From: a virus
Length of the DNA stretch: 25,706 bases
IMG/VR virus record: IMGVR_UViG_3300043449_002711
Coordinates: 1-25,706 of that record
Strand: one strand, 5' to 3'
Part shown: positions 1,024 to 25,706 of the stretch, piece after piece
How the letters are laid out: every line of letters begins with the position of its first letter
Position numbering within the stretch: position 1 is the first letter of the stretch
Program-made: the position numbers and the translations under genes
Notes under the pieces: generated by a model
The model's database searches: none
What the model was told of the DNA's origin: nothing
Seen by the model: only the letters and a program-made list of their open reading frames with translations

Positions 1024-1029
1024 GCTGCT

Positions 1030-1109: not shown

Positions 1110-1139
1110 CTTGACACGTTGGCTCCGGGCCCGGCCCGG
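1110..1139. repeat. 30-bp intergenic element with GC-rich inverted repeat, copy 1
   Basis: A CTTGACACG block is followed after six bases by CCGGGCC-C-GGCCCGG, a perfect 7-bp inverted repeat around one base. The copy at 1559-1588 matches it at about 25 of 30 positions. The element lies between the 3' end of one minus-strand gene and the promoter of the next. A TGTCAAGC at 1152-1159 makes an additional 8-bp inverted repeat with GCTTGACA at 1109-1116. No U-run follows in either direction, so an operator-like site fits better than a terminator. Confidence 0.55.
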
Positions 1140-1176
1140 AAAGAAAGGGTTGTCAAGCCTTTTTTCCGATTTTTTA

Positions 1177-1482: not shown

Positions 1483-1488
1483 GTTGTT

Positions 1489-1516
1489 AAGATACCACAA
1501 ACGCGCAGGGAAACAA
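1489..1516 (-). promoter_or_regulatory. Sigma70-like promoter, leaderless type
   Basis: Minus strand TTGTTT, 16-bp spacer, TATCTT, six bases, then the ATG at 1482. The -35, -10 and part of the spacer (CCCTGCG) match the promoter at 1833-1860. Confidence 0.6.
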
Positions 1517-1558
1517 GTTTTTTCTGCGCTTTTTTTATTTTTTATTCTGCATTTTTTT

Positions 1559-1588
1559 CTTGACACGCTTTCACCGGGCCGGGCCCGG
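1559..1588. repeat. 30-bp intergenic element with GC-rich inverted repeat, copy 2
   Basis: Second copy of the element at 1110-1139: CTTGACACG, then CCGGGCC-G-GGCCCGG. The inverted-repeat arms are identical between copies while the six bases between the two blocks differ, as expected of a protein-binding site. It again sits between a minus-strand gene's 3' end and the next promoter. Confidence 0.55.
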
Positions 1589-1625
1589 CATAAGCCCGCC
1601 TACTAGGTGGGCAGTAGCCGCCCTA

Positions 1626-1826
1626 CTACTTGCGGAACAGCACGAACTTTAGCCCGCGCACCTTGGGGTCATTATCTTGCAAGATGTATTCTTGAAAGAC
1701 CGCCTTGCGCTCTTCGAAGGTGGCGGTGGGGTACTTCGCCTTTAGCTCTTCGAACATCGCCGCGCAGGGTTGCGGCTGGATCGCGAGGATTTGCGTGCGC
1801 CAATCGTATTTCATCGTCTTTTTCAT
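1626..1826 (-). CDS. Small protein, MKYDW family, copy 2 (66 aa)
   Basis: Paralogue of the 63-aa product at 639-830. It begins MKKTMKYDWRTQILAIQPQP and ends in a basic LKFVLFRK tail. The shared core is MKYDW-x-TQI, a Cys near residue 21, F-x-x-LKA, a FEE motif and EYI. The promoter ending six bases before 1826 supports this start over the internal Met at codon 5. Function is unknown. Two diverged copies within 1.2 kb suggest local duplication and diversification. Confidence 0.72.
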   Translation of the reverse strand: MKKTMKYDWRTQILAIQPQPCAAMFEELKAKYPTATFEERKAVFQEYILQDNDPKVRGLKFVLFRK

Positions 1827-1832
1827 GCTCTA

Positions 1833-1860
1833 AAGATAGCGCGGGACGCAGGGAAAACAA
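1833..1860 (-). promoter_or_regulatory. Sigma70-like promoter, leaderless type
   Basis: Minus strand TTGTTT, 16-bp spacer, TATCTT, six bases, then the ATG at 1826. Nearly identical to the promoter at 1489-1516. Confidence 0.6.
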
Positions 1861-1894
1861 GCCTTTTTTTTTATTTTCTACGATTTTTTTTTCG

Positions 1895-1922
1895 TTGACT
1901 TTTCGCGCTGCGCTGCTATTCT
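1895..1922 (+). promoter_or_regulatory. Sigma70-like promoter for the GP88-like gene
   Basis: TTGACT, 16-bp spacer, TATTCT on the + strand, the best -35/-10 match in this gap. It would give a leader of about 75 nt before the ATG at 2005. It lies back to back with the leftward promoter at 1833-1860. Confidence 0.5.
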
Positions 1923-1969
1923 TCCCGCCGTTTGCCTTTCCTTTGCGTTTCCGATTTTTTATTTTTTAA

Positions 1970-1998
1970 TTGCGCAACGCACCGATTCGCGCCAATCT
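1970..1998 (+). promoter_or_regulatory. Possible second, leaderless promoter for the GP88-like gene
   Basis: TTGCGC, 17-bp spacer, CAATCT, then six bases to the ATG at 2005. Individually weak, but the spacing is the same as at the other genes of this region. Confidence 0.3.
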
Positions 1999-2004
1999 CC
2001 TCGC

Positions 2005-2697
2005 ATGAAACTCCACTTGCTCTCATTTAACACCGACGCCAAGACTACCAAGGGCAACGCCTTCGGCTGGTTTACTGCTATCCTTTACCTTGCGCCCGCT
2101 CGCCTTGCGGGGCGTGGGGAAGTGTGCGGACACCGCTCGCCCCATTGCACGGCGTGCTGTCTTAACACCGCAGGACGTGGAAAGTTTTCGAACGTGCAGC
2201 AAGCGCGCATTCGTAAAACGCAATTGTTTTTCGATTCGTTCGCCACTTTCAAGGCGCAGCTAGTCGCGGACATTGCAACGTTTCAAGCTTACTGCGCCAA
2301 GCAAGGCGCGAAGTGTTGCGTGCGTTTGAACGGTACAAGCGACATAGCGTGGGAACGGTTGGGCGTGTTCGAATTGTTTCCTTCGGTGAGCTTCTACGAC
2401 TACACCAAGTCGCCCGTTCGTGCGTTGCAATTCGCCAAGGGCGCTTTGCCTAGCAACTATCATTTGACTTTCTCGCGCAGCGAAACAAACGAGGCGCAAG
2501 CGTTCGACGTGCTGCGCAACGGCGGAAGTGTTGCGGTAGTGTTCGCTTCCCTGCTTCCCTCACATTGGAACGGCTTCGAAGTTGTCAACGGTGACGAATC
2601 GGATTTGCGCTTTCTTGACAAGCGGGGCGTCGTCGTGGGCCTCAAGGCGAAGGGCGAAGCAAAGAAAGACAAGAGCGGATTCGTGGTGCAGGGGTGA
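2005..2697 (+). CDS. GP88-like phage protein
   Basis: The 230-aa product resembles the GP88 family (named after a mycobacteriophage gene product) by an ordered set of motifs: a Cys/His cluster at 41-52 (C41, H43, H47, C48, C51, C52) followed by LNTAGRGKFSNVQQAR; an RLNGTSDIAWE segment near 107-117; FYDYTK near 130-135; and NYHLTFS near 151-157. The Cys/His cluster could bind a metal. No biochemical role is established that I can cite. The C-terminus is Lys-rich. Codons are GC-rich, unlike the AT-rich operon starting near 3 kb. There is no Shine-Dalgarno site. The 23-aa membrane peptide begins three bases after its stop. Confidence 0.75.
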   Translation: MKLHLLSFNTDAKTTKGNAFGWFTAILYLAPARLAGRGEVCGHRSPHCTACCLNTAGRGKFSNVQQARIRKTQLFFDSFATFKAQLVADIATFQAYCAKQGAKCCVRLNGTSDIAWERLGVFELFPSVSFYDYTKSPVRALQFAKGALPSNYHLTFSRSETNEAQAFDVLRNGGSVAVVFASLLPSHWNGFEVVNGDESDLRFLDKRGVVVGLKAKGEAKKDKSGFVVQG

Positions 2698-2700
2698 CGC

Positions 2701-2772
2701 ATGGACTTTGCAATTGTTTTGTTTGCTGTCCTTGTGTTAGTGTTGCTAACTAAAAGGACGAAAAAAAAATGA
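2701..2772 (+). CDS. Tiny single-pass membrane peptide (23 aa)
   Basis: An ATG three bases after the GP88-like stop opens a 23-codon frame: MDF, a run of about 14 hydrophobic residues (AIVLFAVLVLVLL), then the basic tail TKRTKKK. This is a textbook single-pass topology with the positive end inside. The close spacing suggests translational coupling to the preceding gene. Such peptides are often missed; the function is unknown. The main doubt is that so short a frame can arise by chance. Confidence 0.45.
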   Translation: MDFAIVLFAVLVLVLLTKRTKKK

Positions 2773-2780
2773 GAAAAGGC

Positions 2781-2809
2781 TTGCGGTGGGGCGCGCTGCG
2801 CCCCATATT
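2781..2809 (+). promoter_or_regulatory. Leaderless-type promoter with palindromic spacer
   Basis: TTGCGG, 17-bp spacer, CATATT, then six bases to the ATG at 2816. The spacer holds GGGGCGC-GCT-GCGCCCC (2788-2804), a perfect 7-bp inverted repeat that could be an operator, or a terminator remnant from the upstream gene. Confidence 0.45.
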
Positions 2810-2815
2810 TACAGC

Positions 2816-2995
2816 ATGAAAAACAAGATGATAGTTAACGGTAAGGAAGTGGATGACTACAAGCTGCACGTCGAAGGGGATTGCGGTGACGATTCGTGGA
2901 TTGAATGGGCCACGTTCACCGATGGAACGGAACTAGATGGAAAGGAACTAGAGGAGTTCGAAAAGACTTACCTTGCGGAACTAGTGTGGGGATGA
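2816..2995 (+). CDS. Small acidic phage protein (59 aa)
   Basis: The product starts MKNKMIVNGKEVDDYKLHVE and is strongly acidic. The segment WIEWATFTDGTELDGKELEEF resembles a small-protein pattern seen widely in phages (EA-x-W-x-DGT-x-L-x-x-x-EL). No function is known. An in-frame ATG at 2786 would add ten unlikely residues and overlap the -35; the promoter geometry favours 2816. It converges on the minus-strand operon that ends near 3188. Confidence 0.68.
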   Translation: MKNKMIVNGKEVDDYKLHVEGDCGDDSWIEWATFTDGTELDGKELEEFEKTYLAELVWG

Positions 2996-3187
2996 CCCTC
3001 CCCCATTAATTAAAAATCGCGACCCGCTTTTCCGTGGGGCGCGGCGGGGGGTGGTATTTAGTCCGCTCAACTTCAATTTTAAACCCGCCAACTCTATATG
3101 ATCTATTAGTGTCTTAACTATATAAGATGCTAAATGTGGGGATTCTCCCCTTTAACTCCCGTTCAATTTTAATATTTTAAATTCTTT
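2996..3187. other. Convergent intergenic gap
   Basis: No gene is seen here. Base composition changes from GC-rich to AT-rich across this gap. It contains a small perfect hairpin, GGGGA-TTC-TCCCC at 3138-3150, between converging genes. That could help termination, but no U-run follows on either strand. Confidence 0.4.
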
Positions 3188-3280
3188 TTATGGGCCAAAT
3201 AAAGCAAAGTAACCAACCGTAATGATAAGCATAAGAATAATAACCAACCAATCTATTTCTAGATCGTCGTTCTTTTTCAT
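3188..3280 (-). CDS. Tiny single-pass membrane protein (30 aa)
   Basis: The minus-strand frame encodes 30 residues: a charged head MKKNDDLEID followed by a hydrophobic segment WLVIILMLIITVGYFALFG. This is a typical small membrane protein. It is supported by a GTGTAAAC motif on the same strand ending exactly six bases before the ATG, the same arrangement as at the + strand genes starting at 8760 and 9925. No family is recognised; holin-like, inhibitor or superinfection roles are all possible and undecided. Confidence 0.58.
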   Translation of the reverse strand: MKKNDDLEIDWLVIILMLIITVGYFALFGP

Positions 3281-3286
3281 GGTAGA

Positions 3287-3294
3287 GTTTACAC
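3287..3294 (-). promoter_or_regulatory. GTGTAAAC late-type promoter motif
   Basis: Minus strand GTGTAAAC followed by six bases and the ATG at 3280. It matches the motif in front of the genes at 8760 and 9925. Confidence 0.45.
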
Positions 3295-3301
3295 CCCCCA
3301 C

Positions 3302-3323
3302 CCCCATTTTTAGAAAAATGGGG
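3302..3323. other. Perfect 10-bp stem inverted repeat
   Basis: CCCCATTTTT-AG-AAAAATGGGG, a perfect 10-bp stem with a two-base loop, just upstream (minus strand) of the GTGTAAAC motif at 3287-3294. It may terminate transcription arriving from the large minus-strand operon, isolating the 30-aa gene. A loop this tight may also form a cruciform. Confidence 0.45.
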
Positions 3324-3377
3324 AAAAACTCCCAGCTTATAGGGTATTAAGAACCGGGAAACCGGGAGCCCTCTATT

Positions 3378-3473
3378 TCACCAATGGTGAATAATATTAA
3401 TTATCAAAGCAACATCAGCTACGATTGCGAGAACCATTATTATTACGTTTACTGTTTCGTTTTTGATCTTCAT
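3378..3473 (-). CDS. Possible tiny membrane protein, overlapping frame (31 aa)
   Basis: Thirty-one codons: MKIKNETVN, then a hydrophobic stretch VIIMVLAIVADVALIINII, then HHW. It overlaps the 3' end of the 55-aa gene 3415-3582 in another frame for 59 bases and has no clear ribosome site. The hydrophobic segment is long and clean. The C-terminal part of the overlapping gene is a low-complexity Asn/Arg/Ser tail, suggesting that selection may act on this frame instead. Tentative. Confidence 0.35.
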   Translation of the reverse strand: MKIKNETVNVIIMVLAIVADVALIINIIHHW

Positions 3474-3582
3474 CGTTCTTTTTTAATAATTCAAATAGGT
3501 CTTTTACCTTAATAAGTTTGTTGTTGTGTGTGGTGTAGTGTTCTGCGGGAATCTTTTTTAATAGCTCAAGATCATAGTTCAT
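3415..3582 (-). CDS. Small protein coupled to the HAD phosphatase gene (55 aa)
   Basis: The ATG overlaps the stop of the upstream HAD gene as ATGA. The product starts MNYDLELLKKIPAEHYTTHN, continues with an amphipathic KVKDLFELLKK helix, and ends in a basic, low-complexity tail rich in Asn, Arg and Ser. No family is recognised. The coupled start makes it a likely gene of the operon; the last third overlaps the possible membrane peptide at 3378-3473. Confidence 0.5.
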   Translation of the reverse strand: MNYDLELLKKIPAEHYTTHNNKLIKVKDLFELLKKNDEDQKRNSKRNNNGSRNRS

Positions 3583-4067
3583 TTAATCTTAGAGAGTAAG
3601 TTGTTTATTGTTTTTTCGTCTAGGGGCAAGGTTTCTCCCCCAGAAAACGTTGAGCATTGTATGTAGTTGATTATTTTCTGTTTAGAAACTGATCTTAAAA
3701 AATGTATTTTAGTATGATTCTCTCGCTTAGGCAAGTTATCAATAAGATGAACACTTTCAACTGGTTCTAATTGTATATCATTGCCATGAACATCTTCTCT
3801 GGCATAAATATGCATTGGATCGAAACCAAAAGAAAATAATTCGTTAACCATGTCAGCATACTCTGTTGTTGCTGCCGTAAGCATGTAAACAGGAGCGATT
3901 TGTCTGAGTTTGGCGAGGAATTCCAAAGCGCCCGGTCTTTCGCAAGTCTCATAAGAGTCCCCATCGCTAAGGGTGAAAGATTTTATATTGTGCCCAGCCT
4001 TCTCTTCCCAACTGTTAAAAGTATGGATGAGAGTCTCGTCCAAGTCAACGAATATATAAGAATTCAT
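3579..4067 (-). CDS. HAD-superfamily phosphatase, NIF/FCP1-like
   Basis: The 162-aa protein has HAD motif I VDLDETLIHTF (D8, D10, T12), a Thr-rich motif II in YMLTAATTEY (about T64) and a motif IV HLIDN (D110). The order and the DLDETL form resemble the NLI-interacting-factor/FCP1 branch of HAD phosphatases, which remove phosphate through an aspartyl-phosphate intermediate. Length fits a single HAD core domain. It is one base from the upstream membrane-protein gene and overlaps the downstream 55-aa gene by four bases. The substrate is unknown; a sugar phosphate would fit the operon (inference), but a protein or nucleic-acid 5'/3' phosphate is equally possible. Confidence 0.82.
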   Translation of the reverse strand: MNSYIFVDLDETLIHTFNSWEEKAGHNIKSFTLSDGDSYETCERPGALEFLAKLRQIAPVYMLTAATTEYADMVNELFSFGFDPMHIYAREDVHGNDIQLEPVESVHLIDNLPKRENHTKIHFLRSVSKQKIINYIQCSTFSGGETLPLDEKTINNLLSKIK

Positions 4068-4068
4068 A

Positions 4069-4251
4069 TTAATAAGAGTCTATGCCGTTTCTAACAAATC
4101 TGCATATAGAAAATACTGCTTCCCGATAATCTTTCCATGCGTGTGGGTATAAAACACAGCCGATAAAAAAAACCACAGTCATAGGAACAAACAACATCAA
4201 AGCGACTAATAGTCTAGCTGGAACAAAAAGATATCTTACGAGATCATTCAT
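4069..4251 (-). CDS. Small membrane protein (60 aa)
   Basis: The 60-aa product has one long hydrophobic span (about residues 12-35, LLVALMLFVPMTVVFFIGCV) preceded by MNDLVRYLFVPAR and followed by a soluble tail with several Arg and Asp residues. Its ATG overlaps the stop of the upstream gene (eight-base overlap). The function is unknown. Confidence 0.65.
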   Translation of the reverse strand: MNDLVRYLFVPARLLVALMLFVPMTVVFFIGCVLYPHAWKDYREAVFSICRFVRNGIDSY

Positions 4252-4438
4252 ACTTTACTGTCCAATCAGTTTCGTTCATAACATGGTCCCAAAGGGTTTC
4301 AAAATCATCTCCGCTTGTATTTACGCCAGCGTCTTTGGCGAGCTTTAAGATCCAACCGTCCTGCTGCTTTTGCTGCAAAGTGATTTTCCTTCTGAGGGCA
4401 GCGACTTTGCTTTTATATTTTTTATTTATTGTTAACAT
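4244..4438 (-). CDS. Small hypothetical protein (64 aa)
   Basis: The 64-aa product is basic at the N-terminus (MLTINKKYKSKVAALRRKI, helical) and acidic at the C-terminus (DDFETLWDHVMNETDWTV). No family is recognised. It starts one base after the stop of the upstream gene and overlaps the downstream membrane-protein gene by eight bases, so it is part of the coupled operon. Confidence 0.6.
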   Translation of the reverse strand: MLTINKKYKSKVAALRRKITLQQKQQDGWILKLAKDAGVNTSGDDFETLWDHVMNETDWTVKYE

Positions 4439-4439
4439 A

Positions 4440-4994
4440 TTAAGTCCAGAAATATTTTCTATTTTTAACTAACCAAAGTAAAAGAGCATCGTCTTTTTTT
4501 ATCAACTTTGTTTTAAAATTGCCAAGCGAAATGGTTTCGATTTCCTTTTCATCTAAACCCCGCATCTCCTCAATAAGTTTTTGCCTTTCATATTTGACGT
4601 ACTTATAGTATTTATTTAATTCTTTTTTAAATTTAGATTCGCAGCCACTAAGATTAGTGAGCGCGTCCTCTTTTTCGACAAATTCTTTTACCATTTCACA
4701 GGCAAAACTTTCAAACATAATATCTAAATCTTGCCAGCATGGCGCAAAAACCTGATCTCGCATCTCTTTTCTAGGATGATGGGCGTTATGCTTCAATCGC
4801 TCAAAATAATATTTTATTTTATACTTGAAGCGTGCCAAATTAATCGGAAGAGTTTCTCTGAAAAAGTATTGTGCGGGGTATTTCTTTTTTATTTTTGCGC
4901 GAAACAAATCCCAATCCTCCCAAGATAGCGTAAGTGGATATAGATAAATAGGATGTGGCCAATACCACACTTTTTTTGCTTTAACAAAAATCAT
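4440..4994 (-). CDS. Hypothetical phage protein, Trp/Tyr/Lys-rich (184 aa)
   Basis: The 184-aa protein opens with KKVWYWPHPIYLYPLTLSWE. A basic central part (YKIKYYFERLKHNAHHPRKE) is followed by W-x-D-L-D-I-M-F-E-S-F-A-x-E-M-V-K-E-F-V-E, a pattern that recalls phage hypothetical proteins with a basic helix followed by D-x-x-x-x-x-x-LA-x-x-I-x-x-x-L. No enzyme motif is visible. Its start overlaps the cupin gene's stop by one base, placing it in the same translational chain. Confidence 0.65.
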   Translation of the reverse strand: MIFVKAKKVWYWPHPIYLYPLTLSWEDWDLFRAKIKKKYPAQYFFRETLPINLARFKYKIKYYFERLKHNAHHPRKEMRDQVFAPCWQDLDIMFESFACEMVKEFVEKEDALTNLSGCESKFKKELNKYYKYVKYERQKLIEEMRGLDEKEIETISLGNFKTKLIKKDDALLLWLVKNRKYFWT

Positions 4995-5368
4995 TATTTT
5001 GGCTGAGAGTCTCCTGGGACAACTCTATACGAATCATCATCAAAATGCTGAGTAGAAATTTCTATGATAACAGTATCTTCTATCGCTTCTACTTGATGAG
5101 GATTCAGCTTAGGGATATCCACAACATCTCCAGCGCACAAAATAACAATAGACATTTTTGCAGTTTCTGTATTTATTACGCTTAATGCTATTTTGCCAGT
5201 TTGGATGTACCAAGTTTCATGCTTTTTGACATGAAAATGCATGGAGCCTTTTGCTCCTTGAGCGAAACGAAGAAACTTCATGCAGTAATCTGGACAATTA
5301 ATTATCCAATCTTCTCTGCCCCACCCTTTTGGATGAAGCTCTGGTTTTAAAAGGGAAACTTTGTTCAT
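4994..5368 (-). CDS. Cupin, mannose-6-phosphate isomerase type II-like
   Basis: The 124-aa single-domain cupin has motif 1 GSMHFHVKKHETWYIQTG, with likely metal ligands H44, H46 and E51, and motif 2 GDVVDIPKLNPHQVEAI, with P86 and H91. The C-terminal ISTQHFDDDSYRV segment is typical of the mannose-6-phosphate-isomerase-like cupins that isomerise or epimerise phosphorylated or nucleotide-linked sugars. It overlaps the carbamoyltransferase gene by four bases (ATGA), so the two are translated together, suggesting that the cupin prepares the sugar that is carbamoylated (inference). A binding-only cupin remains possible. Confidence 0.85.
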   Translation of the reverse strand: MNKVSLLKPELHPKGWGREDWIINCPDYCMKFLRFAQGAKGSMHFHVKKHETWYIQTGKIALSVINTETAKMSIVILCAGDVVDIPKLNPHQVEAIEDTVIIEISTQHFDDDSYRVVPGDSQPK

Positions 5369-6978
5369 TTTTTTGTAAAAACAAAATTTTCTACTACAAG
5401 TATATCAACTATATCATTGTCAAGATGCACAAAAGCTTCTTTGGGAGAGCAGATTATTGGTTCTTCGTGAATATTAAAAGAAGTATTCAATAGCACAGGA
5501 ATATTGCTAATATCATTAAACTTATTTATTAATTTGTAAAATTTTGGATTACTTTGTTCTGTGACGATTTGTATTCTTGCTGTTTTGTCAATTGGATGAA
5601 CTACAGCTGGAATTTTATCCGCCCATTCATCTCTTGTATCGTACAGCATAGTCATAAACTCCGCTGTATATTTTGATTTTTCAATTTTAAAAACTTTATC
5701 TGCATAGTTGTCTATTACAACTGGAGCAAATGGCATAAAATCATTTCTTTGAAGTTTTTTGTTGATTCTGTCGTATGTACCAGGAATACTTGGATTTGCA
5801 ATTATGCTGCGGTTGCATAGCGCTCTGGGGCCATACTCTACTCTGCCCCAAGCAATTCCAACTATTTTCCCTTTGGCTAATTCAAGGGCAATTTCATTTT
5901 CATTATATGGGTGTCTTTCAAATTTGTTTTTATCCCAAAAAATATTTTCGACTTCCGAATCTGAAAATTGTGCTCCCCAAAACATATCATTAACTCTAAA
6001 CGGCTTGAAATTATTTTCAAATAATTTATAAGTCGCAAAGCAACAACCAAGCGGCAAACCTTCGTCTCCCATTGGAGGAGCAACAAAAACTTCATCAAGC
6101 CAAGGTAATTCATTTAATCTTTTATTTACTTTTACATTTGCAAAAACTCCTCCAGCAACGGCTGCTTTTTTTATACTTGGATACATTTTATGTAAATTAT
6201 CAAAAAGTTGTAAAATTTTTTCTTCAAATACAAGTTGACCATTAAATGCTATATCGGCTTTTCTATGCGCAAAGAATGAACTTCCAAATTCAGTAAAAAA
6301 ATTATTATAAAAATCTTTATAAATTCCACCTAAAGCACATTTAGACCCTAAATCAAGATCTGTTTTTAAGCCATCAATTTTAATTGATTTGTCAAAAATT
6401 GAATAAAATTTTTCATTAAATCTTCCGTGAGAAGACATTCCTACCACTTTGCCTTCATCTTTTAAACGTTTCCAGCCCAAAAATTCCGTTAGCATTGCAT
6501 AATAATGACCAATTGATTTTCTCGAAAGATCAATCCCACTAATATATTGCAAATTACCATTTTTTCCTATAAAAAATTTAGCACTATGATTGTTTCCACT
6601 TGCATCTATAGAAACAACGAAAGCGTCTTCTTGAAAATTGCTTAAAAAGTAAGCTAAATTACAATGAGATTGGTGGTGGCCAGCTTGAATAAATTTATCC
6701 TTTAAATGCAGCAATCCACAAGAATTTAAGCATTTTTCCATTATTTCATCAAGTGCAAAACAACTTGTTATAAAATCAATATTATTCATTTCGTCCAAAA
6801 ATTTTTCTTTTGCAAATTTAGTCGATAATACTGGAAATCGCAAAAAATTATTTTCAAAATCTTTTTGCGCTTTAATTCTAGAAAATCTTTCTTCTTCAAA
6901 GCAAAAGATGATTTTGCCATCTTTGATTAAAGAAATTCCACAGCTGTGGCTTCCATAAGTTATTCCAAGAATATTCAT
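5365..6978 (-). CDS. NodU/TobZ-family carbamoyltransferase
   Basis: The 537-aa protein has both halves of the O-carbamoyltransferase family. The N-terminal Kae1/TsaD-like domain shows ILGITYGSHSCGISLI, EEERFSR, the metal-site H-x3-H at H101 and H105, SIDASGN (D125), and GGVFAN (276-281) with GDEGLPLG (304-311). The C-terminal domain shows GRVEYGPRALCNRSI (378-392) and PVLLNTSFN (494-502). Known members make carbamoyl-adenylate from carbamoyl phosphate and ATP and transfer it to a sugar or antibiotic hydroxyl. Length and motifs look intact, so it is probably active. It sits one base after the 192-aa gene and overlaps the cupin gene. The target could be a surface glycan, a nucleotide sugar or a modified DNA base; context favours a sugar. 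Confidence 0.92.
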   Translation of the reverse strand: MNILGITYGSHSCGISLIKDGKIIFCFEEERFSRIKAQKDFENNFLRFPVLSTKFAKEKFLDEMNNIDFITSCFALDEIMEKCLNSCGLLHLKDKFIQAGHHQSHCNLAYFLSNFQEDAFVVSIDASGNNHSAKFFIGKNGNLQYISGIDLSRKSIGHYYAMLTEFLGWKRLKDEGKVVGMSSHGRFNEKFYSIFDKSIKIDGLKTDLDLGSKCALGGIYKDFYNNFFTEFGSSFFAHRKADIAFNGQLVFEEKILQLFDNLHKMYPSIKKAAVAGGVFANVKVNKRLNELPWLDEVFVAPPMGDEGLPLGCCFATYKLFENNFKPFRVNDMFWGAQFSDSEVENIFWDKNKFERHPYNENEIALELAKGKIVGIAWGRVEYGPRALCNRSIIANPSIPGTYDRINKKLQRNDFMPFAPVVIDNYADKVFKIEKSKYTAEFMTMLYDTRDEWADKIPAVVHPIDKTARIQIVTEQSNPKFYKLINKFNDISNIPVLLNTSFNIHEEPIICSPKEAFVHLDNDIVDILVVENFVFTKK

Positions 6979-11615: not shown

Positions 11616-11984
11616 ATGGCAACCATCTTCTGTACAAATTGTGGAGGCAAGCACGAATATAGTGGATTTGCTCCTAATTTTTGTTCAAAATGCGGCACAC
11701 CTATAAACGGCAAATCTCAGAAAGAGGCGCCAGTAAAAAAAATTGCTAGGGAAGATGTTGAAACTGAATCAGAAGATAATACTGATATTGATGAGCTTCC
11801 TGACATCAAAAAACTTGATGTTGAAATAGAGGTAGAGGGTGGATTTAGACAGTTTAATTTAGAAGAACTGTCAAAAAATCCAACAGCAGCAAAAGCTAAA
11901 AGGTTCGCTCCAACTCGCCACAATGGTCTTGGAGACCTTTCTCCCTCTAAATATGGAAGCTCAAAAAACAAAGCGCAAGATTAA
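11616..11984 (+). CDS. Zinc-ribbon protein (122 aa)
   Basis: The N-terminus has a zinc ribbon with Cys pairs C6-x2-C9 and C23-x2-C26 (FCTNCGG and FCSKCGTP). A long acidic linker follows (about 46-80, many Glu and Asp), then a basic tail KAKRFAPTRH. The architecture suits a protein that bridges nucleic acid or polymerase and another partner. The sigma-factor gene begins inside its 3' end, so the two are coupled, and it may assist sigma-dependent late transcription (inference). Confidence 0.75.
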   Translation: MATIFCTNCGGKHEYSGFAPNFCSKCGTPINGKSQKEAPVKKIAREDVETESEDNTDIDELPDIKKLDVEIEVEGGFRQFNLEELSKNPTAAKAKRFAPTRHNGLGDLSPSKYGSSKNKAQD

Positions 11985-12666
11985 ATACGAAGACAAAAGA
12001 GAAGTAATAGATAGAATTATAGAAAAGCATAGATATATCTGGCAGCTAAGAGCTATAGCTTGGATGGATTACGAAGATGTCGCGCAGATAATTAGGTTTC
12101 ATATTTCCAAAAAATGGCATATGTGGAAACAAGATAGGCCGCTTGAACCTTGGATATCTAGAATAACCTCCAATCAAATCAAAAATCTTTTGCGCAATAA
12201 TTATTCTAATTATGCGCGCCCTTGTTTGGGCTGCAAGTTTAATCAAGGCAATGAACCTCCAGCATGTTCGATCACGCCAAGTGGAAAACAGTGTGGAGAA
12301 TGTCCTCTTTATAAGAAATGGGAAAAGACAAAGAAAAGCGCTTATGATGTAAAACTGTGTGTTTCAATAGAGGGCCACAATGATAAAGTTTTTGGAATGG
12401 CCGATAATAATTTTGATATATTATCAAGCGCTTCAAGACTGCATGAAGAGATGAAGCTTTACTTGGCTCCAAAACAATACAAAGTATATTCTAGATTATA
12501 TATTGATGGCGCTGATGAAGAAAAAGTAGCGGCTGAAATGGGCTATAAAACAAACGAAAAGGGCAAGAAAGCGGGATACAAACAAATAAAAAATCTAAAA
12601 AAGCTTTTCAAGAAAGTTGCTCTAAAAATACTTCAGAACGAAGATATTTTAACCACCCATGAATAA
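11953..12666 (+). CDS. Phage sigma70-family sigma factor with Cys cluster
   Basis: From the ATG at 11953 the product is 237 aa. Residues about 37-80 resemble sigma region 2 (DYEDVAQIIRFHISKKWHMW, then PLEPWISRITSNQIKNLLR). A cysteine cluster follows (C91, C94, C105, C114, C117), then a region-4-like helix set (LAPKQYKVYSRLYIDGADEE and KVAAEMGY) and a basic C-terminus. A sigma factor in the late block is reminiscent of T4 gp55, which directs host polymerase to late promoters. The Cys cluster between the two domains is unusual and may bind zinc. The frame is open to 11923, so that start is possible. It overlaps the zinc-ribbon gene by 32 bases and the next gene by eight. Confidence 0.78.
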   Translation: MEAQKTKRKIKYEDKREVIDRIIEKHRYIWQLRAIAWMDYEDVAQIIRFHISKKWHMWKQDRPLEPWISRITSNQIKNLLRNNYSNYARPCLGCKFNQGNEPPACSITPSGKQCGECPLYKKWEKTKKSAYDVKLCVSIEGHNDKVFGMADNNFDILSSASRLHEEMKLYLAPKQYKVYSRLYIDGADEEKVAAEMGYKTNEKGKKAGYKQIKNLKKLFKKVALKILQNEDILTTHE

Positions 12667-13720
12667 TGAAATTAAGTTTTCACCAGAGGATGGCGAAAAG
12701 ATAAAGCAGCTTGCAGCGGAATTCCCAGATTTAAATTTAATTACAAAAAAATTCTTCAATAATGAGGAGTTGGATGGCAGAAGTAAAGAGGGTATAGCTA
12801 TAAGAGCTTACCTTGTTACAAACAAGATAAACTACAAAACATCAAAGTATCAAAAAGTTGGTAATCTGCCCCTCTCTGAGGCACAAAAAGAATTTATTGT
12901 TCAGCAAACTAAACTTGGCTTATCTAGTTTAAAAATTGCAGAGTTGCTATATCCAGACAAGCAAGTTGTTCAGATGAGTCTTGAGCAGAGAACGGTCATG
13001 AATTATATACGTTCTCTTGAGGATTTGCCTCAAGTCGAAAGCGAAAGCGCGCTCGGAACTAAGTATCAAGTTCCTCGTTCTGTTGAGCGTATAGCTAATA
13101 AGATTAATGATGCCACTGGGGAAAATATAAATAAAGATAGGCTCACTAGGCAGCAAAAGGTATGTATAGATAAACTGGGCATTAACTTAAACAATTCAAG
13201 GTTTCAGAAAATAATTAATTGCTATACCTCGCTCGACGATAGAAATATATTTGAGCAGGAATTTATAAGAATGACTTGGGACAAGCCTGATCTTACGGCT
13301 GATGAAGTTAATCTATACATGAATGTTTGCAAAGAGATTATAAACTTAGAAACTACTTCTAGGCATTTAGATAAATTGAATAAAATGTTTGAAGAGACTC
13401 AGGAGCAAAACGAAATGAGTATTCGTTTAGCTGAAATCATTAAGGCAAAAAGTAGTGAATATCATCAATGCGAAGGCCGCGTCGAAAGTTTAATTAAAAA
13501 ATTACAAGGGGATCGTAGGGAAAGAATATCCTCTAAACAAAAAGAAAACGCATCTATATTATCTATAGTTCAACTCTTTCAAGATGAAGAAGAAAGAGCT
13601 AATATGATAAAAATTGCTGAAATGCAAAAGTCGTTAGTTGCAGACGAGGCAAAAAAGATGGAAACTATGGTGGAATGGAAAGCTCGTATTCTTGGCATAT
13701 CATTAGATGATGCAATTTAG
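12659..13720 (+). CDS. Helical DNA-binding-like protein, possible small terminase role (353 aa)
   Basis: The 353-aa protein is mostly helical. A segment at about 71-115 (LPLSEAQKEFIVQQTKLGLS, then LKIAELLYP) looks like a helix-turn-helix. The middle (about 225-300) is a long charged helix and the end is acidic. No family is firmly recognised. Its place just before the nuclease and terL genes is where small terminase subunits usually lie, which makes that the main hypothesis, but it is longer than a typical TerS. It overlaps its neighbours by 8 and 14 bases. Confidence 0.5.
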   Translation: MNNEIKFSPEDGEKIKQLAAEFPDLNLITKKFFNNEELDGRSKEGIAIRAYLVTNKINYKTSKYQKVGNLPLSEAQKEFIVQQTKLGLSSLKIAELLYPDKQVVQMSLEQRTVMNYIRSLEDLPQVESESALGTKYQVPRSVERIANKINDATGENINKDRLTRQQKVCIDKLGINLNNSRFQKIINCYTSLDDRNIFEQEFIRMTWDKPDLTADEVNLYMNVCKEIINLETTSRHLDKLNKMFEETQEQNEMSIRLAEIIKAKSSEYHQCEGRVESLIKKLQGDRRERISSKQKENASILSIVQLFQDEEERANMIKIAEMQKSLVADEAKKMETMVEWKARILGISLDDAI

Positions 13721-14687
13721 CGACTCCAACTGTTGCAAAATATGCCACAGTTCCTTTAATTCAGAAAGGAGCTTGCACGCACATTTAAAGAAGCATAAGG
13801 TTTCTCTTAACGAGTATTATATTACTCATTATCCTAGAAAAAACCTTTTAACGGGAACTCTTTTGCCCTTTAAAGATAAAGAGTCTTATTTTCAAAATGA
13901 TTTTGCCAACAGAGAGCAGCTATTACGTTGGTGCGAGATAGAAAAGCCAGAAATTGTAAAAGAATATATAAAAAAAATGCTTGCTAATCGAATAGAAAGT
14001 AAAGGTTTAAAATATGCACCATGCCACTTAGACTTGGAAACTAGCGAAATGCCTTCCATAGATATTTATAAAAAACATTTCGGCACATATTCAAAAATTT
14101 GCGACGAATTAAAAATAAACCCGATGTTCAGGAGATCTCTGCCAAAAAAGTTCCATGAAGATTATTCCAATGTTAATATTTTTATAGATACTAGAGAGCA
14201 GCAGCCACTAACATTCAAAAATCAAAAAAGCGTTAAGTTAGATTTCGGAGATTATACAGCGAGTGGAACAAATTATACAAAAACATTTGTTGACCGCAAA
14301 TCAGAATCTGATTTTAAAGGAACTCTTGTTGGAGAAAATTTAGATAGGTTTAGGCGCGAGCTTGAAAGATGCAAGAGCATGGAATGTTATTTGTATATTG
14401 TTGTGGAGTCTTCTTTAGATCGTATAAAAAATAATAATGACTTTGCTCCTCATAAGGCTAATCTTAAATTTATCTATCATAACATGAGATTATTGCAGCA
14501 TGAGTTCGCTGGATATTGCCAATTTGTATTTTCTGGAAACAGATCGAATAGTGAAATTTTAATTCCTAAGTTGACTGCAATTGGAAACATCCTTTGGGAT
14601 GTGGACGTTCAATACTTTTTAGACAAGGACTCATCATGGCTTGGATCGAAGGAAATCAAAAAAGAAAATCTCCATTTCGCAACGTAA
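13707..14687 (+). CDS. C2H2 zinc finger + ERCC4-type nuclease
   Basis: Three parts are visible in 326 aa. A C2H2 finger is at the N-terminus (C10-x2-C13-x12-H26-x3-H30). A segment at about 113-141 (MPSIDIYKKHFGTYSKICDE) resembles the homing-endonuclease-associated repeat (FG-[ST]-[WY]-x-x-x-x). An ERCC4/XPF-like nuclease core has DTREQ (D161, R163, E164), FGDY (181-183) and VDRKS (D196, R197, K198), followed by a basic helix LDRFRRELERCKS. ERCC4 nucleases cut branched or structured DNA. The gene overlaps terL by 52 bases. It could resolve DNA before packaging or be a mobile endonuclease settled beside terL. Confidence 0.82.
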   Translation: MMQFSDSNCCKICHSSFNSERSLHAHLKKHKVSLNEYYITHYPRKNLLTGTLLPFKDKESYFQNDFANREQLLRWCEIEKPEIVKEYIKKMLANRIESKGLKYAPCHLDLETSEMPSIDIYKKHFGTYSKICDELKINPMFRRSLPKKFHEDYSNVNIFIDTREQQPLTFKNQKSVKLDFGDYTASGTNYTKTFVDRKSESDFKGTLVGENLDRFRRELERCKSMECYLYIVVESSLDRIKNNNDFAPHKANLKFIYHNMRLLQHEFAGYCQFVFSGNRSNSEILIPKLTAIGNILWDVDVQYFLDKDSSWLGSKEIKKENLHFAT

Positions 14688-16504
14688 ATGAAGAAATCCT
14701 GTCTAAACAGGGGTTCTTAGAAGAAAGAGAGGCGAAGATTTTGCTTTATAAATTTTTGCGTTCAAATATCTCTTTTTCTTCCGAAATTATTTGCGGCGTA
14801 AAGCTATTTCCATTTCAACACATGGCAATTAAAACCATGTTTGAAACAGATTACTCTATGATGGTGTGGAGCCGTGGATTATCGAAGAGCTTTACCTGTG
14901 CTGTTTTTGCATCTTTAGATGCAATATTAAATCAGGGAGTTCATATTGGAATTGTTAGCAAAACATTTCGTCAGGCAAAAATGATTTTTAGAAAGATAGA
15001 AGAAATTGCCGAAAAACCCAACGCTGCGTTTTTGAAACAATGCATGACTAAAGTGTCAAAAAGCTCAGACGAATGGACTATGGAGTTTGGCAGAAGCAAA
15101 ATAACTTGTTTGCCTCTAGGCGACGGCGAAAAACTTCGCGGTTTTCGCTTTCACCGCATGATGATTGATGAATTCTTGCTTATGCCAGATCGTATTTTTA
15201 ACGAAGTAATTATTCCGTTTCTTTCTGTAGTGCAGAATCCGACAGAGAGAAAACAGGTTTATGATCTAGAAACCGAATTGATAAAACGCGGAGAAATGAA
15301 AGAGGAGGATAGGTTTGTTTGGCCGAACAATAAAATTATTGTTCTTTCTTCTGCATCTTACCAATTTGAATACATGTATAAGCTTTACAAGCAGTATGAA
15401 AACCTTATCGTTACGCCAGAAAAAAATGCCAAGGGCGCTGCAACAAGGGCAATCTTACACTTTAGTTATGATATTGCGCCTCATGGGTTATACGACGAAA
15501 GTTTGTTAACTCAGGCTAAAGCTACAATGTCAGAGTCTCAATTTAAACGAGAGTTCGGATCTCAATTTGTTGATGATTCCTCTGGATATTTTAAGTTAAG
15601 CAAAATGCACGAATGCACTATAAAGGTTGGTGAAGGTCAGTGCATTGAACTTGCTGGAGAAAAGAATGCCGAATATATTTTAAGCTTTGACCCATCTTGG
15701 GCAGAAAATGAATCTTCTGACGACTTTGCCATGAATATTATAAAGCTAGATAAGACAAGTCGTAAAGGCACCCTCGTTCATAATTACGGCCTGTCAGGAA
15801 CAAATTTAAGAAAGCATATTGAATATTTTCACTACTTGCTCACAAACTTTAATATTGTTGCAATGTGTGGCGACTATAACGGAGGCTTGCAATTCATTAA
15901 CGCCGCAAACGAAAGTGAGCTTTTTAAAAATAGCAAGATAGAAGTTAAAACATTTGAAGCAGATTTTGATACTCCTGAAATTTATCAAGATGAGCTAAGA
16001 AAAGCTAGATCTTCTTACAACAAGAGCACAAATAAGATTTGCTATTTGCGAGTTCCAACTAGCAATTGGATAAGATATGCTAATGAACTATTACAGTCAA
16101 ACTTTGACCACAGAAAAATACTATTCGCCGCCGAAGCTGTAGATAATGACTTTTCCGCGCAAAAAAGCAAAAATATTCCAATTAAAAATCTTAAATTTAT
16201 TAGAGATCAGGAAGATGGGCAGAGCTTAGAGGCGAAAATGGTAGACTTCGTTGATCATCAAGCGGATATGATTGAATTAGTAAAAGCTCAATGCTCTCTT
16301 ATAGTTCCAACAACAACAGCTAATGGGCACCAAAGCTTTGATCTACCGCCAGAATTAAAAAAACAAAGCGGTGCAGAAAAAACAAGGAAGGACTCTTATT
16401 CTTGTTTAGTCCTCGGAAATTGGATGGCAAAAGTTTACTTCGATATGATTGATATTAAAGTCGAAAGAACAAGTGCCACATTTGTTCCATTTTTCGCTAG
16501 GTAA
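14636..16504 (+). CDS. terL: Terminase large subunit
   Basis: From 14636, which has AGGA seven bases upstream, the product is 622 aa. The ATPase half has a variant Walker A SRGLSKS (79-85), Walker B RMMIDE (D178, E179) and the coupling motif IIVLSSASY (about 234-242). The nuclease half has ILSFDPSWAE (D352), MCGDYNGG (D413) and a late FVDHQADMI acidic segment, consistent with an RNase H-like packaging nuclease. It powers DNA translocation into proheads and cuts concatemers. The frame is open to 14594, but the Shine-Dalgarno favours 14636. It is followed by a hairpin and then the portal gene. Confidence 0.93.
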   Translation: MAWIEGNQKRKSPFRNVNEEILSKQGFLEEREAKILLYKFLRSNISFSSEIICGVKLFPFQHMAIKTMFETDYSMMVWSRGLSKSFTCAVFASLDAILNQGVHIGIVSKTFRQAKMIFRKIEEIAEKPNAAFLKQCMTKVSKSSDEWTMEFGRSKITCLPLGDGEKLRGFRFHRMMIDEFLLMPDRIFNEVIIPFLSVVQNPTERKQVYDLETELIKRGEMKEEDRFVWPNNKIIVLSSASYQFEYMYKLYKQYENLIVTPEKNAKGAATRAILHFSYDIAPHGLYDESLLTQAKATMSESQFKREFGSQFVDDSSGYFKLSKMHECTIKVGEGQCIELAGEKNAEYILSFDPSWAENESSDDFAMNIIKLDKTSRKGTLVHNYGLSGTNLRKHIEYFHYLLTNFNIVAMCGDYNGGLQFINAANESELFKNSKIEVKTFEADFDTPEIYQDELRKARSSYNKSTNKICYLRVPTSNWIRYANELLQSNFDHRKILFAAEAVDNDFSAQKSKNIPIKNLKFIRDQEDGQSLEAKMVDFVDHQADMIELVKAQCSLIVPTTTANGHQSFDLPPELKKQSGAEKTRKDSYSCLVLGNWMAKVYFDMIDIKVERTSATFVPFFAR

Positions 16505-16556: not shown

Positions 16557-18467
16557 ATGCCAAGAGAATATAATAAAAAGTCAGAGTATTGGAATAGATT
16601 TAAAGCCCCACAGCCTATCGGTCAAAATAATTTTGAGCCAAAGCTAGTTGGAGACTCTTATTTTACTGATATTTCTAAGGCATCAAGATCAACTGCCGCC
16701 AGCAAGTCTACTCAGATTAGAGTTCCCGCAAATGGCACAGACTCCAATATTAGAAGGTATGCTCTTTTAAGTCAGGGAATGCTCCCTTATGACTTCTCTA
16801 AAGATGGCGTTGATGTAAGAGATGCAATTTTACTCTGTCAAAAAGCTTACGCTAATGTCGCTATTGTTAGAAATACAATAGATATCGCCACCGAGTTCGC
16901 AAATACAGATATATATTTAGAAGGCGGCACCGAGCGTAGCAGAGAATTTTTCAACAAATGGTTTAAAAAGATAAAGCTTTGGAAATTAAAAGATCAGTAT
17001 TTTCGCGAATATTATCGCAGTGGCAATATTTTTTATTACCGCATCGATGGAAAATTTAATGCGGAAGACTTTAAACTACTCTCTGGTTTAAGCGAAAATG
17101 GAATCGTCAATAACCAAGTTCCTCTTCGTTATATCCTTATTAATCCATACGATATCGTAGCAAAGATATCAAGTTCATTTGCGGAGGCTGTATATGAAAA
17201 AGTATTGTCGGAGTACGAGCTTGAAAAATTAAAGAATCCAAAAACTGACGAAGATGTTGAATTATTGAAAGGCTTTCCTCAAGAAGTTCAAGATCAAATA
17301 AAAAAGAAACAATATTTTCGCGACGGATTGAAGATGAAGCTTGATCCAAAATTTTTGCTTTATTCATTTTACAAAAAACAAGATTATGAGCCATTCGCTA
17401 TCCCATTTGCTTATCCAGTTCTTGAGGATGTAAACGCCAAAATAGAATTAAAACACATTGATCAAGCAATTGCCAGAACTGTCGAAAATGTTATTTTGCT
17501 TATCACTATGGGCGCAGAACCAGACAAGGGTGGAATTAATCCAGCGAACATGACAGCCATGCAAAACTTATTTATGAACGAAAGCGTGGGTCGCGTTCTT
17601 GTTTCCGACTATACCACCAAGGCAGACTTTGTAATTCCAGATCTTAAAAAAGTAGTTGGAGAAGAAAAATACAAAATACTGAACCAAGATATTAAAGAAG
17701 GCTTGATGAATGTAATGCTTGGCGATGATAAATACAATGGTCAAAGCGCAAAAATAGGCTTCTTCATGGAAAGATTAAAAGAGGCTCGCAATGCATTTTT
17801 GAATGATATTCTTCAACCAGAAATTATTCGCATATCAAAAGATTTAGGATTTAGATCTTATCCAATAGCCAAGTTTAGCGAGATTGATCTCAAGGACGAA
17901 GTACAATACATGAGAACAATTAGCCGCTTGATGGAAGTTGGAATCCTTACGCCACAACAAGGCATTGAGTCTATTAATAATGGTAAGTTGCCAAATGTTG
18001 ACGATATGGACGCCGCTCAAAATAAACTTGTAACAGACAGAGAAAAGGGATATTACAATCCTATTGTTGGTGGAGTTCCAATGATGCAAAGTGAAGCTCC
18101 AGCTTTAACTGCGGCTCCAAAAGAATCTGGTGCAGGTAGACCAATTGGCGCAACAGCTTCGCGCAAAGATATACAATCTACAATTTATGAAATTGATGCT
18201 TTCATGAAAGCTTCTGAGGATTTTGCCGCTAAAAAATTTAGCGTTAAAAAATTGAACAAAACTCAAAAAGAGAACTTAGAAAGTCTTTGCAAAAAAGTAA
18301 TAGCGTCAAGTAGTAGAGATGATTGGGTCGCTAATATTCAAAAGTGCATGGCTAGTTTTGATGAAATAGAGAAATTGCAGCCAATGAATGAAGTAGTAAA
18401 AGTAGCAGATGAATTTCAATTAGATGAATATTCTGCGGCTATTTTGCATCATTCTACTGTAAAATAA
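16557..18467 (+). CDS. Portal protein
   Basis: The 636-aa protein directly follows terL and precedes the protease gene, the canonical portal position. Visible features are a polar N-terminal arm, an alpha/beta core with YREYYRSGNIFYYRIDG-like and LRYILINPYDIVAKI segments, a long helix-rich stem region (about 295-420, including KHIDQAIARTVENVILLITM), and a C-terminal charged tail. Portals form the dodecameric ring at the capsid vertex through which DNA passes. The length is at the upper end of the usual range. The C-terminal 100 residues (rich in Ala, Ser and Lys) may be a crown extension. Confidence 0.88.
   Translation: MPREYNKKSEYWNRFKAPQPIGQNNFEPKLVGDSYFTDISKASRSTAASKSTQIRVPANGTDSNIRRYALLSQGMLPYDFSKDGVDVRDAILLCQKAYANVAIVRNTIDIATEFANTDIYLEGGTERSREFFNKWFKKIKLWKLKDQYFREYYRSGNIFYYRIDGKFNAEDFKLLSGLSENGIVNNQVPLRYILINPYDIVAKISSSFAEAVYEKVLSEYELEKLKNPKTDEDVELLKGFPQEVQDQIKKKQYFRDGLKMKLDPKFLLYSFYKKQDYEPFAIPFAYPVLEDVNAKIELKHIDQAIARTVENVILLITMGAEPDKGGINPANMTAMQNLFMNESVGRVLVSDYTTKADFVIPDLKKVVGEEKYKILNQDIKEGLMNVMLGDDKYNGQSAKIGFFMERLKEARNAFLNDILQPEIIRISKDLGFRSYPIAKFSEIDLKDEVQYMRTISRLMEVGILTPQQGIESINNGKLPNVDDMDAAQNKLVTDREKGYYNPIVGGVPMMQSEAPALTAAPKESGAGRPIGATASRKDIQSTIYEIDAFMKASEDFAAKKFSVKKLNKTQKENLESLCKKVIASSSRDDWVANIQKCMASFDEIEKLQPMNEVVKVADEFQLDEYSAAILHHSTVK
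18457..18464 (+). promoter_or_regulatory. CTGTAAAA variant of late-type motif
   Basis: CTGTAAAA is followed by six bases and the ATG at 18471, the same spacing as at 8760. It overlaps the last portal codons, so it could be coincidence. Confidence 0.25.
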
Positions 18468-23854: not shown

Positions 23855-25706
23855 ATGCCAATTTATTATATAGCAGCAGATGGTACGGGAGTTAGCGGTA
23901 CAACCGGAACATATTTTACTATTGTTGATATAGACACTGGCGTTTTCGGCGCTTTGTATTTGGTTAAAACAGGAACAGCAGTTAATTCAGATAAATTAAA
24001 CGGACAAAGTGGCAATTATTATTTAGATGCTTCCAATCTTACTGGAAATTTAGATTTGTCTTCCGCTTCTCTTTTAAGAGACGTTTCAGTAAAAAATGGA
24101 AATTATACAATTTCTTCTGGAGACGATATCGTTATAGTTGATTCAAATACTTACGCTACAATAACTTTACCCCTCGCTAGCGGATATTCTGGCAATCAAT
24201 TTTTTGTTAAAAATAAAGGTACTGGAATCGTTAGTATTGCTGCTGATCATTTAGATTTAATTGACGGTGAACCTAATTACGAATTAAGTCAGTATGAAGT
24301 TGTTGAAATTGTTAGTGATGGGTCTGCTTGGTATTCTATTAGTTCAAATTCTCAAACTGCTGGAAGCAATGGACCAAATACAAGTGGAAGCTCTGGAGTA
24401 AGCGGAACTAATGGAACTAGTGGAAGCAGCGGAAGAACTGGGAGTAGCGGCTCAAGTGGCAGAACAGGAACTTCTGGCACAAGTGGACAAAGAGGAGCTT
24501 CCGGTAGTTCTGGAACAAGTGGTAGTAAAGGACAAGCGGGAAGCTCTGGAACAAGTGGCAGTCAAGGCCCATCAGGAAGTTCAGGAACAAGTGGTGGCCA
24601 AGGTCCATCAGGAAGCTCTGGAACAAGTGGAGCCAGAGGAACTAGTGGTAGTTCAGGAATCACTGGTTCGTCAGGAACTAGTGGAAGTGGAGCGCCTGGT
24701 ACAAGTGGTTCTTCAGGTATAAGTTCAAATTACCAAACAACTTCAAATTCTACTCTTAATTTAAGCTCGATTAATCCCAATGACATTATAACTATAACAT
24801 TAGTTGGTAATGTTAATTATACACCTGCTCAATATATTGTTGTTGCTTACGCAGATCATTCTTGGATGAGCGGGAGAGTTATATCTTATAATAGTTCGAC
24901 CCAAGAATTACAATTTACTGTTATAGAATCTGAAGGAGGCGGAACGTATTCAAGTTGGAGTGTTAATTTGCAAGGTAGTTATGGGCAAGACGGTAGTTCT
25001 GGACAAAATGGAACAAATGGCTCTAGTGGCATAAACGGCACAAGCGGAAGCGCTGGCTCATCTGGTTTAAGTGGCACAAGCGGAACTGCTGGCTCTAGCG
25101 GAGAAAATGGCACAAGCGGAAGTGCTGGTTCATCTGGCGCAAACGGCACAAGTGGAACAGCAGGATCTAGCGGAGAAAACGGCACAAGCGGAAGCGCTGG
25201 TTCATCTGGCTTAAGTGGCACAAACGGAACTGCTGGTTCGTCTGGCGCAAACGGCACAAGTGGAACAGCAGGATCTAGCGGAGAAAATGGCACAAGCGGA
25301 AGTGCTGGTTCGTCTGGCGCGAATGGCACAAGTGGAACAGCAGGATCTAGCGGAGAAAATGGCACAAGCGGAAGCGCTGGCTCATCTGGTTTAAGTGGCA
25401 CAAACGGAACTGCTGGCTCTAGCGGAGAAAATGGCACAAGCGGAAGCGCTGGTTCATCTGGCGCAAACGGCACAAGTGGAACAGCAGGATCTAGCGGAGA
25501 AAATGGCACAAGCGGAAGCGCTGGTTCATCTGGCTTAAGTGGAACAAACGGAACTGCTGGTTCATCTGGCACAAACGGTACAAGTGGAACAGCAGGATCT
25601 AGCGGAGAAAATGGCACAAGCGGAAGTGCTGGTTCGTCTGGCGCGAATGGCACAAGTGGAACAGCAGGATCTAGCGGAGAAAATGGCACAAGCGGAAGCG
25701 CTGGCT
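23855..25706 (+). CDS. Collagen-like tail fibre protein (partial, runs off right edge)
   Basis: The frame is open for 617 codons to the window edge. Residues 1-169 are a beta-rich head (MPIYYIAADGTGVSGTTGTY, LNGQSGNYYLDASNLTG, ITLPLASGYSGNQFFVKNKG). Residues 170 to about 289 are Gly-X-Y repeats based on GSSGTSG. Residues about 290-373 form a folded island (NDIITITLVGNVNYTPAQYI). Residues 374 to the edge are longer Gly-X-Y repeats with GENGTSGSAGSSG. Such triplets make trimeric collagen-like rods in phage fibres. There is no Pro-rich stabilisation; Ser, Thr, Asn and Ala dominate the X and Y sites. The C-terminal tip, which would decide receptor binding, is outside the window. Confidence 0.88.
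   Translation, partial: MPIYYIAADGTGVSGTTGTYFTIVDIDTGVFGALYLVKTGTAVNSDKLNGQSGNYYLDASNLTGNLDLSSASLLRDVSVKNGNYTISSGDDIVIVDSNTYATITLPLASGYSGNQFFVKNKGTGIVSIAADHLDLIDGEPNYELSQYEVVEIVSDGSAWYSISSNSQTAGSNGPNTSGSSGVSGTNGTSGSSGRTGSSGSSGRTGTSGTSGQRGASGSSGTSGSKGQAGSSGTSGSQGPSGSSGTSGGQGPSGSSGTSGARGTSGSSGITGSSGTSGSGAPGTSGSSGISSNYQTTSNSTLNLSSINPNDIITITLVGNVNYTPAQYIVVAYADHSWMSGRVISYNSSTQELQFTVIESEGGGTYSSWSVNLQGSYGQDGSSGQNGTNGSSGINGTSGSAGSSGLSGTSGTAGSSGENGTSGSAGSSGANGTSGTAGSSGENGTSGSAGSSGLSGTNGTAGSSGANGTSGTAGSSGENGTSGSAGSSGANGTSGTAGSSGENGTSGSAGSSGLSGTNGTAGSSGENGTSGSAGSSGANGTSGTAGSSGENGTSGSAGSSGLSGTNGTAGSSGTNGTSGTAGSSGENGTSGSAGSSGANGTSGTAGSSGENGTSGSAG
24362..24720 (+). repeat. Collagen-like repeat block 1
   Basis: Gly-X-Y coding repeats. 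In the central part the 12-residue unit GSSGTSG-x-x-G-x-x recurs about every 36 bases, with substitutions concentrated in the last five residues. Confidence 0.85.
24974..25706 (+). repeat. Collagen-like tandem repeat block 2, 36-bp module
   Basis: The coding unit G-x-NGTSG-[ST]-AGSS (12 residues, 36 bp) repeats to the window edge. GAGAAAA landmarks occur at 25101, 25173, 25281, 25353, 25425, 25497, 25605 and 25677, spaced 72 or 108 bases, all multiples of 36. Near-identical DNA between units points to recent recombination. The block may continue outside the window. Confidence 0.92.

Follow-up and report, generated by a model that had tools for sequence, protein, structure and literature searches.

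Packaging motors have to deal with branched DNA and with the cutting of genome ends, and the known helpers are of the His-Me-finger or RuvC-like types. T4 endonuclease VII has a His-Me finger fold, which is unrelated to ERCC4, and its gene is not located beside terL. This resolvase (gp49) frees packaging motors stalled at Y-junctions and was reported to be portal-bound (PMC9958956). As for the HNH proteins, gp74 of HK97 stimulates cos cleavage (PMC9410871; PMC11331095), and HrdP is located between terL and the portal gene in all Skunavirus genomes examined (PMC12724721). A search of the open-licence literature gave no report of a zinc finger fused to ERCC4 or of an ERCC4 gene linked to terL; in a first-pass annotation of the present DNA, the combination was given as one not known to be a described family.

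The DNA analysed was a viral sequence of 25,706 nucleotides (IMG/VR record IMGVR_UViG_3300043449_002711, positions 1 to 25,706; hereafter, the window), of which the terminase block is as follows.

11923-12666, + strand: first gene of the block, for a conserved sigma-70 region-2-like protein (PF04542, 8e-5)
12659-13720, + strand: conserved 353-aa gene, small-terminase candidate, at a constant position upstream of the nuclease
13707-14687, + strand: fused zinc-finger/HNH-repeat-like/ERCC4 nuclease gene (326 aa, ATG start)
13728-13799, + strand: C2H2 zinc finger (residues 8-31; ligands C10, C13, H26, H30)
14019-14126, + strand: helix-turn-helix like the homing-endonuclease-associated repeat (about residues 105-140; PF18780 in 26 of 51 members)
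14169-14594, + strand: ERCC4/XPF-type nuclease domain (residues 155-296; DTREQ at 161-165, GDY at 181-183, DRK at 196-198, D202)
14636-16504, + strand: terL, large terminase, 622 aa (Terminase_6N, 2.1e-8; phrog_2, 2.8e-29)
16557-18467, + strand: gene that follows terL, for a conserved 636-aa protein without family match (probable portal, judged from the position)

A second ATG at 13710 is an alternative start of the nuclease. The nuclease ORF shares 14 bases with the preceding 353-aa ORF (end, 13720) and 52 bases with terL, which starts at a conserved ATG (14636); the program-made ORF list has a TTG at 14594, upstream of this ATG. The reading frame and the 52-base overlap described in the first-pass annotation were therefore borne out. 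The dN/dS of the nuclease gene against its relatives was about 0.09-0.10, which indicates purifying selection and argues against a chance ORF. Elsewhere in the window, we observed a NodU/CmcH-type carbamoyltransferase gene (4994-6978, - strand) with a cupin gene as its neighbour, in a cluster on the reverse strand, and a gene for a tail or virion-surface protein with collagen-like Gly-Ser-Ser/Thr repeats (23855-25705), which runs off the contig end. The G+C content was 48-53% in positions 1-3000, in which a GP88 family gene is located (2005-2697), and 29-40% in most of the window.

When the window protein alone was used as the query, Pfam gave ERCC4 (PF02732) at E = 8e-4, below the gathering score, and C2H2 at E = 0.015-0.05, below the curated cut-offs, and PHROG gave phrog 3490 ('ERCC4-type nuclease') at 1.8e-11; HNH_repeat gave no Pfam match at E <= 1 for this protein itself, and the profile search gave none for HNH, GIY-YIG, or LAGLIDADG. 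In alignment A3 (51 members, identity down to 32%), zf-C2H2 matched all 51 members, ERCC4 matched 42 (best, 5.4e-15), and HNH_repeat (PF18780) matched 26 at E <= 1 (best, 8.6e-5; the L146 member was below the curated cut-off). The finger and the ERCC4 domain thus occur in one protein as first proposed, together with a segment like the homing-endonuclease-associated repeat, and the similarities to ERCC4 and to the finger, which had been left to a profile search, were both recovered. Among 256 full-length homologues, the finger spacing C-x2-C-x12-H-x3-H was exact in 253, the zinc ligands C10, C13, H26, and H30 were conserved at 99-100%, and the finger core residues F17 and L23 were also conserved, while the positions of the recognition helix were rather conserved. 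In the nuclease domain of the same homologues, D161, R163, E164, G181, D182, Y183, R197, K198, and D202 were conserved at 99-100% (97-100% over DTRE, GDY, [D/E]RK, and D202 taken together), and at position 196, 69% of the homologues had D and 31% had the canonical E. Judged from its sequence, the window protein has the active-site pattern of the ERCC4/XPF superfamily, GDx(n)[E/D]RKx3D with an upstream DTRE. The (HhH)2 domain is absent, since no HhH profile matched and only about 30 residues are C-terminal to the nuclease domain.

The structure was predicted with AlphaFold2 on A3 (mean pLDDT, 91.8). The model consists of the finger, a helical linker, a helix-turn-helix at 107-134 (helices at 107-112, 118-125, and 128-134), and an alpha/beta nuclease at 155-296, in agreement with the three segments. 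Foldseek against the PDB retrieved Aeropyrum pernix XPF (2.3e-5), Pyrococcus furiosus Hef (6.4e-5), and Mus81-Eme1 (7.8e-4), with alignments of about 150-160 columns of the 326, which is the size of the nuclease domain; this modelling and structural search had been suggested with the first-pass annotation, and its result is in favour of the ERCC4 assignment. The significant matches in the viral library were also ERCC4 proteins with alignments of the nuclease-domain size, and no full-length match was present among them. The best NCBIfam leads for the nuclease were Hef and archaeal Xpf, and a sequence search of the PDB with the window protein gave zinc fingers only, weakly. The fold predicted for the window protein is the restriction-endonuclease-like ERCC4 fold.

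For the gene linkage, the best 80 loci were taken from the first scan of viral contigs, and a profile-guided scan gave at least 547 relatives; the sampling therefore covers the nearest relatives (best 80 per scan), and a rare unlinked copy could be missed. terL was located downstream of the nuclease on the same strand in all of the 318 testable loci, namely those in which the 3' end of ERCC4 is complete (representing fewer distinct contigs, because some were counted twice), with gaps of -97 to +1049 and a median of -16 (overlap). One locus flagged as being without terL (L207) has 330 bases after the nuclease, in which terL was detected with the nearer L146 query. In the converse test with TerL as the bait, the nuclease was present in 51/51 terL relatives for which 1.1 kb or more of upstream DNA was available, and no unlinked or lone nuclease copy was found among the sampled loci. 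Thus, to the question raised at the beginning, whether the homologues stay beside terL or appear as isolated insertions, the answer for these loci is the former. The gene is carried by uncultured phages of lakes and oceans, on hundreds of freshwater and marine contigs, and no homologue of the window protein was found in 50,697 cultured phages or in plasmids. Three full-length copies were found in bacterial bins (two of Flavobacteria and one of another bacterium; the phage hosts are uncertain). The chromosomal matches L148-L172 were set aside as ERCC4-only proteins without the finger, of which only L170 is near a terL relative.

As for the neighbouring genes, a homologue of the 353-aa gene adjoins the nuclease upstream, directly or nearly so, in the loci of the relatives. 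The model of the 353-aa protein has an HTH-like N-terminus and a long helical hairpin (AlphaFold pLDDT, 79), and no significant PDB fold match was obtained (G20c TerS only at E = 2.7); for these reasons, we do not claim its small-terminase identity. The genes upstream of the distant terL in MaeS and Stahl were also considered; they have no homology to the 353-aa gene, and no ERCC4 was found there. In TerL, the conserved D352, D413, and D586 would fit the three acidic residues of the nuclease, judging from the motif positions. We rejected the idea that the ERCC4 domain substitutes for a lost TerL nuclease, since these acids are conserved at the nuclease motif positions in alignment A4; the ERCC4 protein is thus an addition, not a replacement. 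The sigma-70 region-2-like protein, which has a conserved Cys-rich stretch, heads the terminase block in both of the lineages compared here. In some relatives, accessory genes are located beside the nuclease or after terL, as if at a preferred insertion site: an SNase gene by the nuclease (L074:1716-2075), inserted genes including a sulfotransferase gene (L243:1833-2570 and L243:3505-4185), a 193-aa gene with an HNH-like look (L068:4418-4999), a 350-aa gene that separates terL from the gene after it (L002:7795-8847), and a further accessory gene (L114:5315-5989). Insertions are therefore tolerated at the junctions on both sides with the nuclease retained.

The chromosomal locus near a terL relative (L170; alphaproteobacterial MAG, 1-6559) pointed to a second, deeply diverged lineage of 80 viral contigs (L253-L332), which are the best 80 loci of the scan. 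The gene order in this lineage is the sigma-like gene, the homologue of the 353-aa gene, usually a GDP-mannose dehydratase gene, which is thus within the terminase block, and then HNH, ERCC4, and terL. The ERCC4 protein is standalone (162 aa) and is encoded between the HNH gene and terL; the HNH gene (92 aa) was present in 78 of the 80 loci, and the remaining two are truncated on the upstream side. Comparison between the lineages with hhalign gave 8e-46 for terL, 1.3e-18 for ERCC4, 2.4e-16 for the sigma-like protein, and 3.7e-7 for the 353-aa gene and its equivalent. We also considered whether the fused N-terminal half originated from the second-lineage HNH gene, and rejected this idea (hhalign probability, 0.1%). 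Because the homologous block carries a standalone ERCC4, the ERCC4 domain was probably at the packaging locus ancestrally, and the DNA-binding module was gained in one branch or lost in the other; this would be the simplest history from the comparison of the blocks, made without a tree.

Action on branched DNA is suggested by the fold and packaging by the location, so that the best explanation is a terminase-dedicated, structure-specific endonuclease that clears branched DNA for packaging, which we regard as rather probable. The ERCC4 domain would cut branched or flapped DNA, i.e., intermediates of recombination and replication within the concatemer; the zinc finger and the HNH-repeat-like helix-turn-helix would keep the nuclease on DNA, substituting for the (HhH)2 of cellular XPF/Mus81; and the nuclease, made along with the packaging motor, would probably work there and prevent TerL from stalling at junctions. 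Its substrate preference, contact with TerL or the portal, and role in packaging are what we infer from this arrangement. The first-pass annotation had offered a branch cutter dedicated to packaging as one possibility; the part on architecture and location stood (domain content, predicted fold of the XPF type, catalytic and zinc residues, and linkage to terL in both directions and in both lineages), and the activity is a prediction. The phages also have replication and recombination genes of their own (the 127-kb relative G001 encodes RecA, DnaB, primase, PolIII alpha, and ribonucleotide reductase), yet other resolvases are absent or few, which is in favour of the debranching role: among the large contigs, which may be partial, RuvC was found in 0/6, RusA in 0/9, T7 endonuclease I in 0/10, and RecU in 0/10, and an EndoVII-like gene, which could be the resolvase there, was found in only 4/15. 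Against the debranching role, the protein is without (HhH)2, which the XPF family uses for junction binding and dimerisation, and a sequence-reading DNA-binding module would be unneeded in a pure branch cutter.

The same features can be read in other ways. The HNH_repeat is a module of homing endonucleases, which the fused DNA-binding half resembles, and the protein might be a selfish element, namely a free-standing homing endonuclease with an ERCC4 catalytic domain taken up later, as the first-pass annotation also proposed. A further point for this idea is found in L003, of which the upstream genes are mostly about 98-100% identical to those of the window (85-94% close to where the 353-aa gene ends), with a mosaic drop in the N-terminal part of the nuclease: against window positions 13700-14100, the initial 300 bases of the nuclease gene have a DNA identity of 66-79%, and the identity is higher again after them. 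This drop indicates that the finger half was exchanged by recombination, for which the usual mosaicism of phages can account. Sporadic insertion or empty sites in relatives, which are the hallmark of homing endonucleases, were not seen (51/51 and 318/318), and the gene is under purifying selection. Moreover, a search of 10 large contigs gave no second copy; with the ERCC4 Pfam model, exactly one copy was detected in seven of them, and in the other three (G004, G010, and G011), to which this model was blind, the copy at the terL locus was detected with closer profiles. No full-length copy was found outside the terL block in the bacterial genomes searched, and none was found in plasmids or cultured phages. 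Mobility is therefore not supported as a current behaviour of this gene, and the homing reading is largely refuted and very improbable. Alternatively, the protein may be a general nuclease for replication, recombination, or repair, or for degradation of host DNA, that merely resides in the terminase operon. The ERCC4 domain alone does not imply packaging, since the ERCC4 nucleases of haloarchaeal tailed viruses are located away from terL (annotated stretches of two haloviruses), and the ERCC4 genes of phages DLP3 and A9Y are annotated outside the packaging module. However, the linkage to terL is unbroken in hundreds of loci despite accessory insertions on both sides and recurs in the second lineage, and we consider a general role distinctly unlikely.

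Packaging could also be served in another manner, which is the main rival reading: the finger and the HNH-repeat-like module would read a cos- or pac-type sequence, at which one strand would be nicked by the ERCC4 domain, and the protein would join TerL in the formation of genome ends, as an analogue of HK97 gp74 (HNH). In favour of this reading, the nuclease is fused with two modules of DNA-binding type, the finger helix positions are fairly conserved, and ERCC4 is paired with an HNH gene wherever the second-lineage loci are not cut short upstream; adjacency to terL is also typical of the packaging HNH proteins (PMC9410871; PMC12724721; PMC11331095). On the other hand, the ERCC4 protein of the second lineage is without any fused DNA-binding module. 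To our knowledge, the ERCC4 enzymes of known activity are structure-specific, and we regard this site-directed role as unlikely, though less so than a general role. Clearing of branched DNA is thus the role that we prefer. In broader terms, we lean slightly to the view that the XPF-fold nuclease is a standing component of the terminase in a large uncultured clade, either as a motor-coupled resolvase or as a site-directed end-former, and we are inclined to the same slight degree to a component whose DNA-binding half is fused in one branch and whose partner is an HNH gene in the other. If this is true, the XPF-type class, which is best known for its part in the repair systems of archaea and eukaryotes, joins the phage packaging machine, and a packaging-associated nuclease besides the HNH and the EndoVII/RuvC types would be previously undescribed. 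With the nuclease-terL pair, junction resolution coupled to the terminase could then be put to the test, and a likely role would be given to a gene family for which we found no cultured representative.

Among known proteins, XPF, Mus81, and Hef resemble the window protein in the predicted nuclease fold and in the DTRE and GDx(n)[E/D]RKx3D motifs. Those enzymes have (HhH)2, whereas the phage nuclease has neither (HhH)2 nor a helicase and has the N-terminal finger and the HNH-repeat-like helix-turn-helix; it also has D for E of the ERK motif in 69% of the members and sits at the terminase locus. The PHROG 3490 proteins (e.g., Halorubrum tailed virus 7 gp72) have the homologous ERCC4 domain (1.8e-11), but they are standalone (about 145-160 aa) without a zinc finger and, in the annotated stretches of two haloviruses, are not encoded beside terL. 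The homing endonucleases with PF18780 may have the helix-turn-helix module in common with the window protein, whose segment is repeat-like; they are sporadic, whereas the nuclease locus is fixed and the protein is without HNH, GIY-YIG, or LAGLIDADG matches. The packaging HNH proteins (HK97 gp74 and Skunavirus HrdP) are likewise fixed beside terL and are likely packaging aids, but their nuclease fold and motifs differ from those of the ERCC4 protein, and the HNH motif of the gp74-type proteins had no match in the window protein. T4 endonuclease VII shares the proposed job, i.e., freeing the packaging motor from branched DNA.
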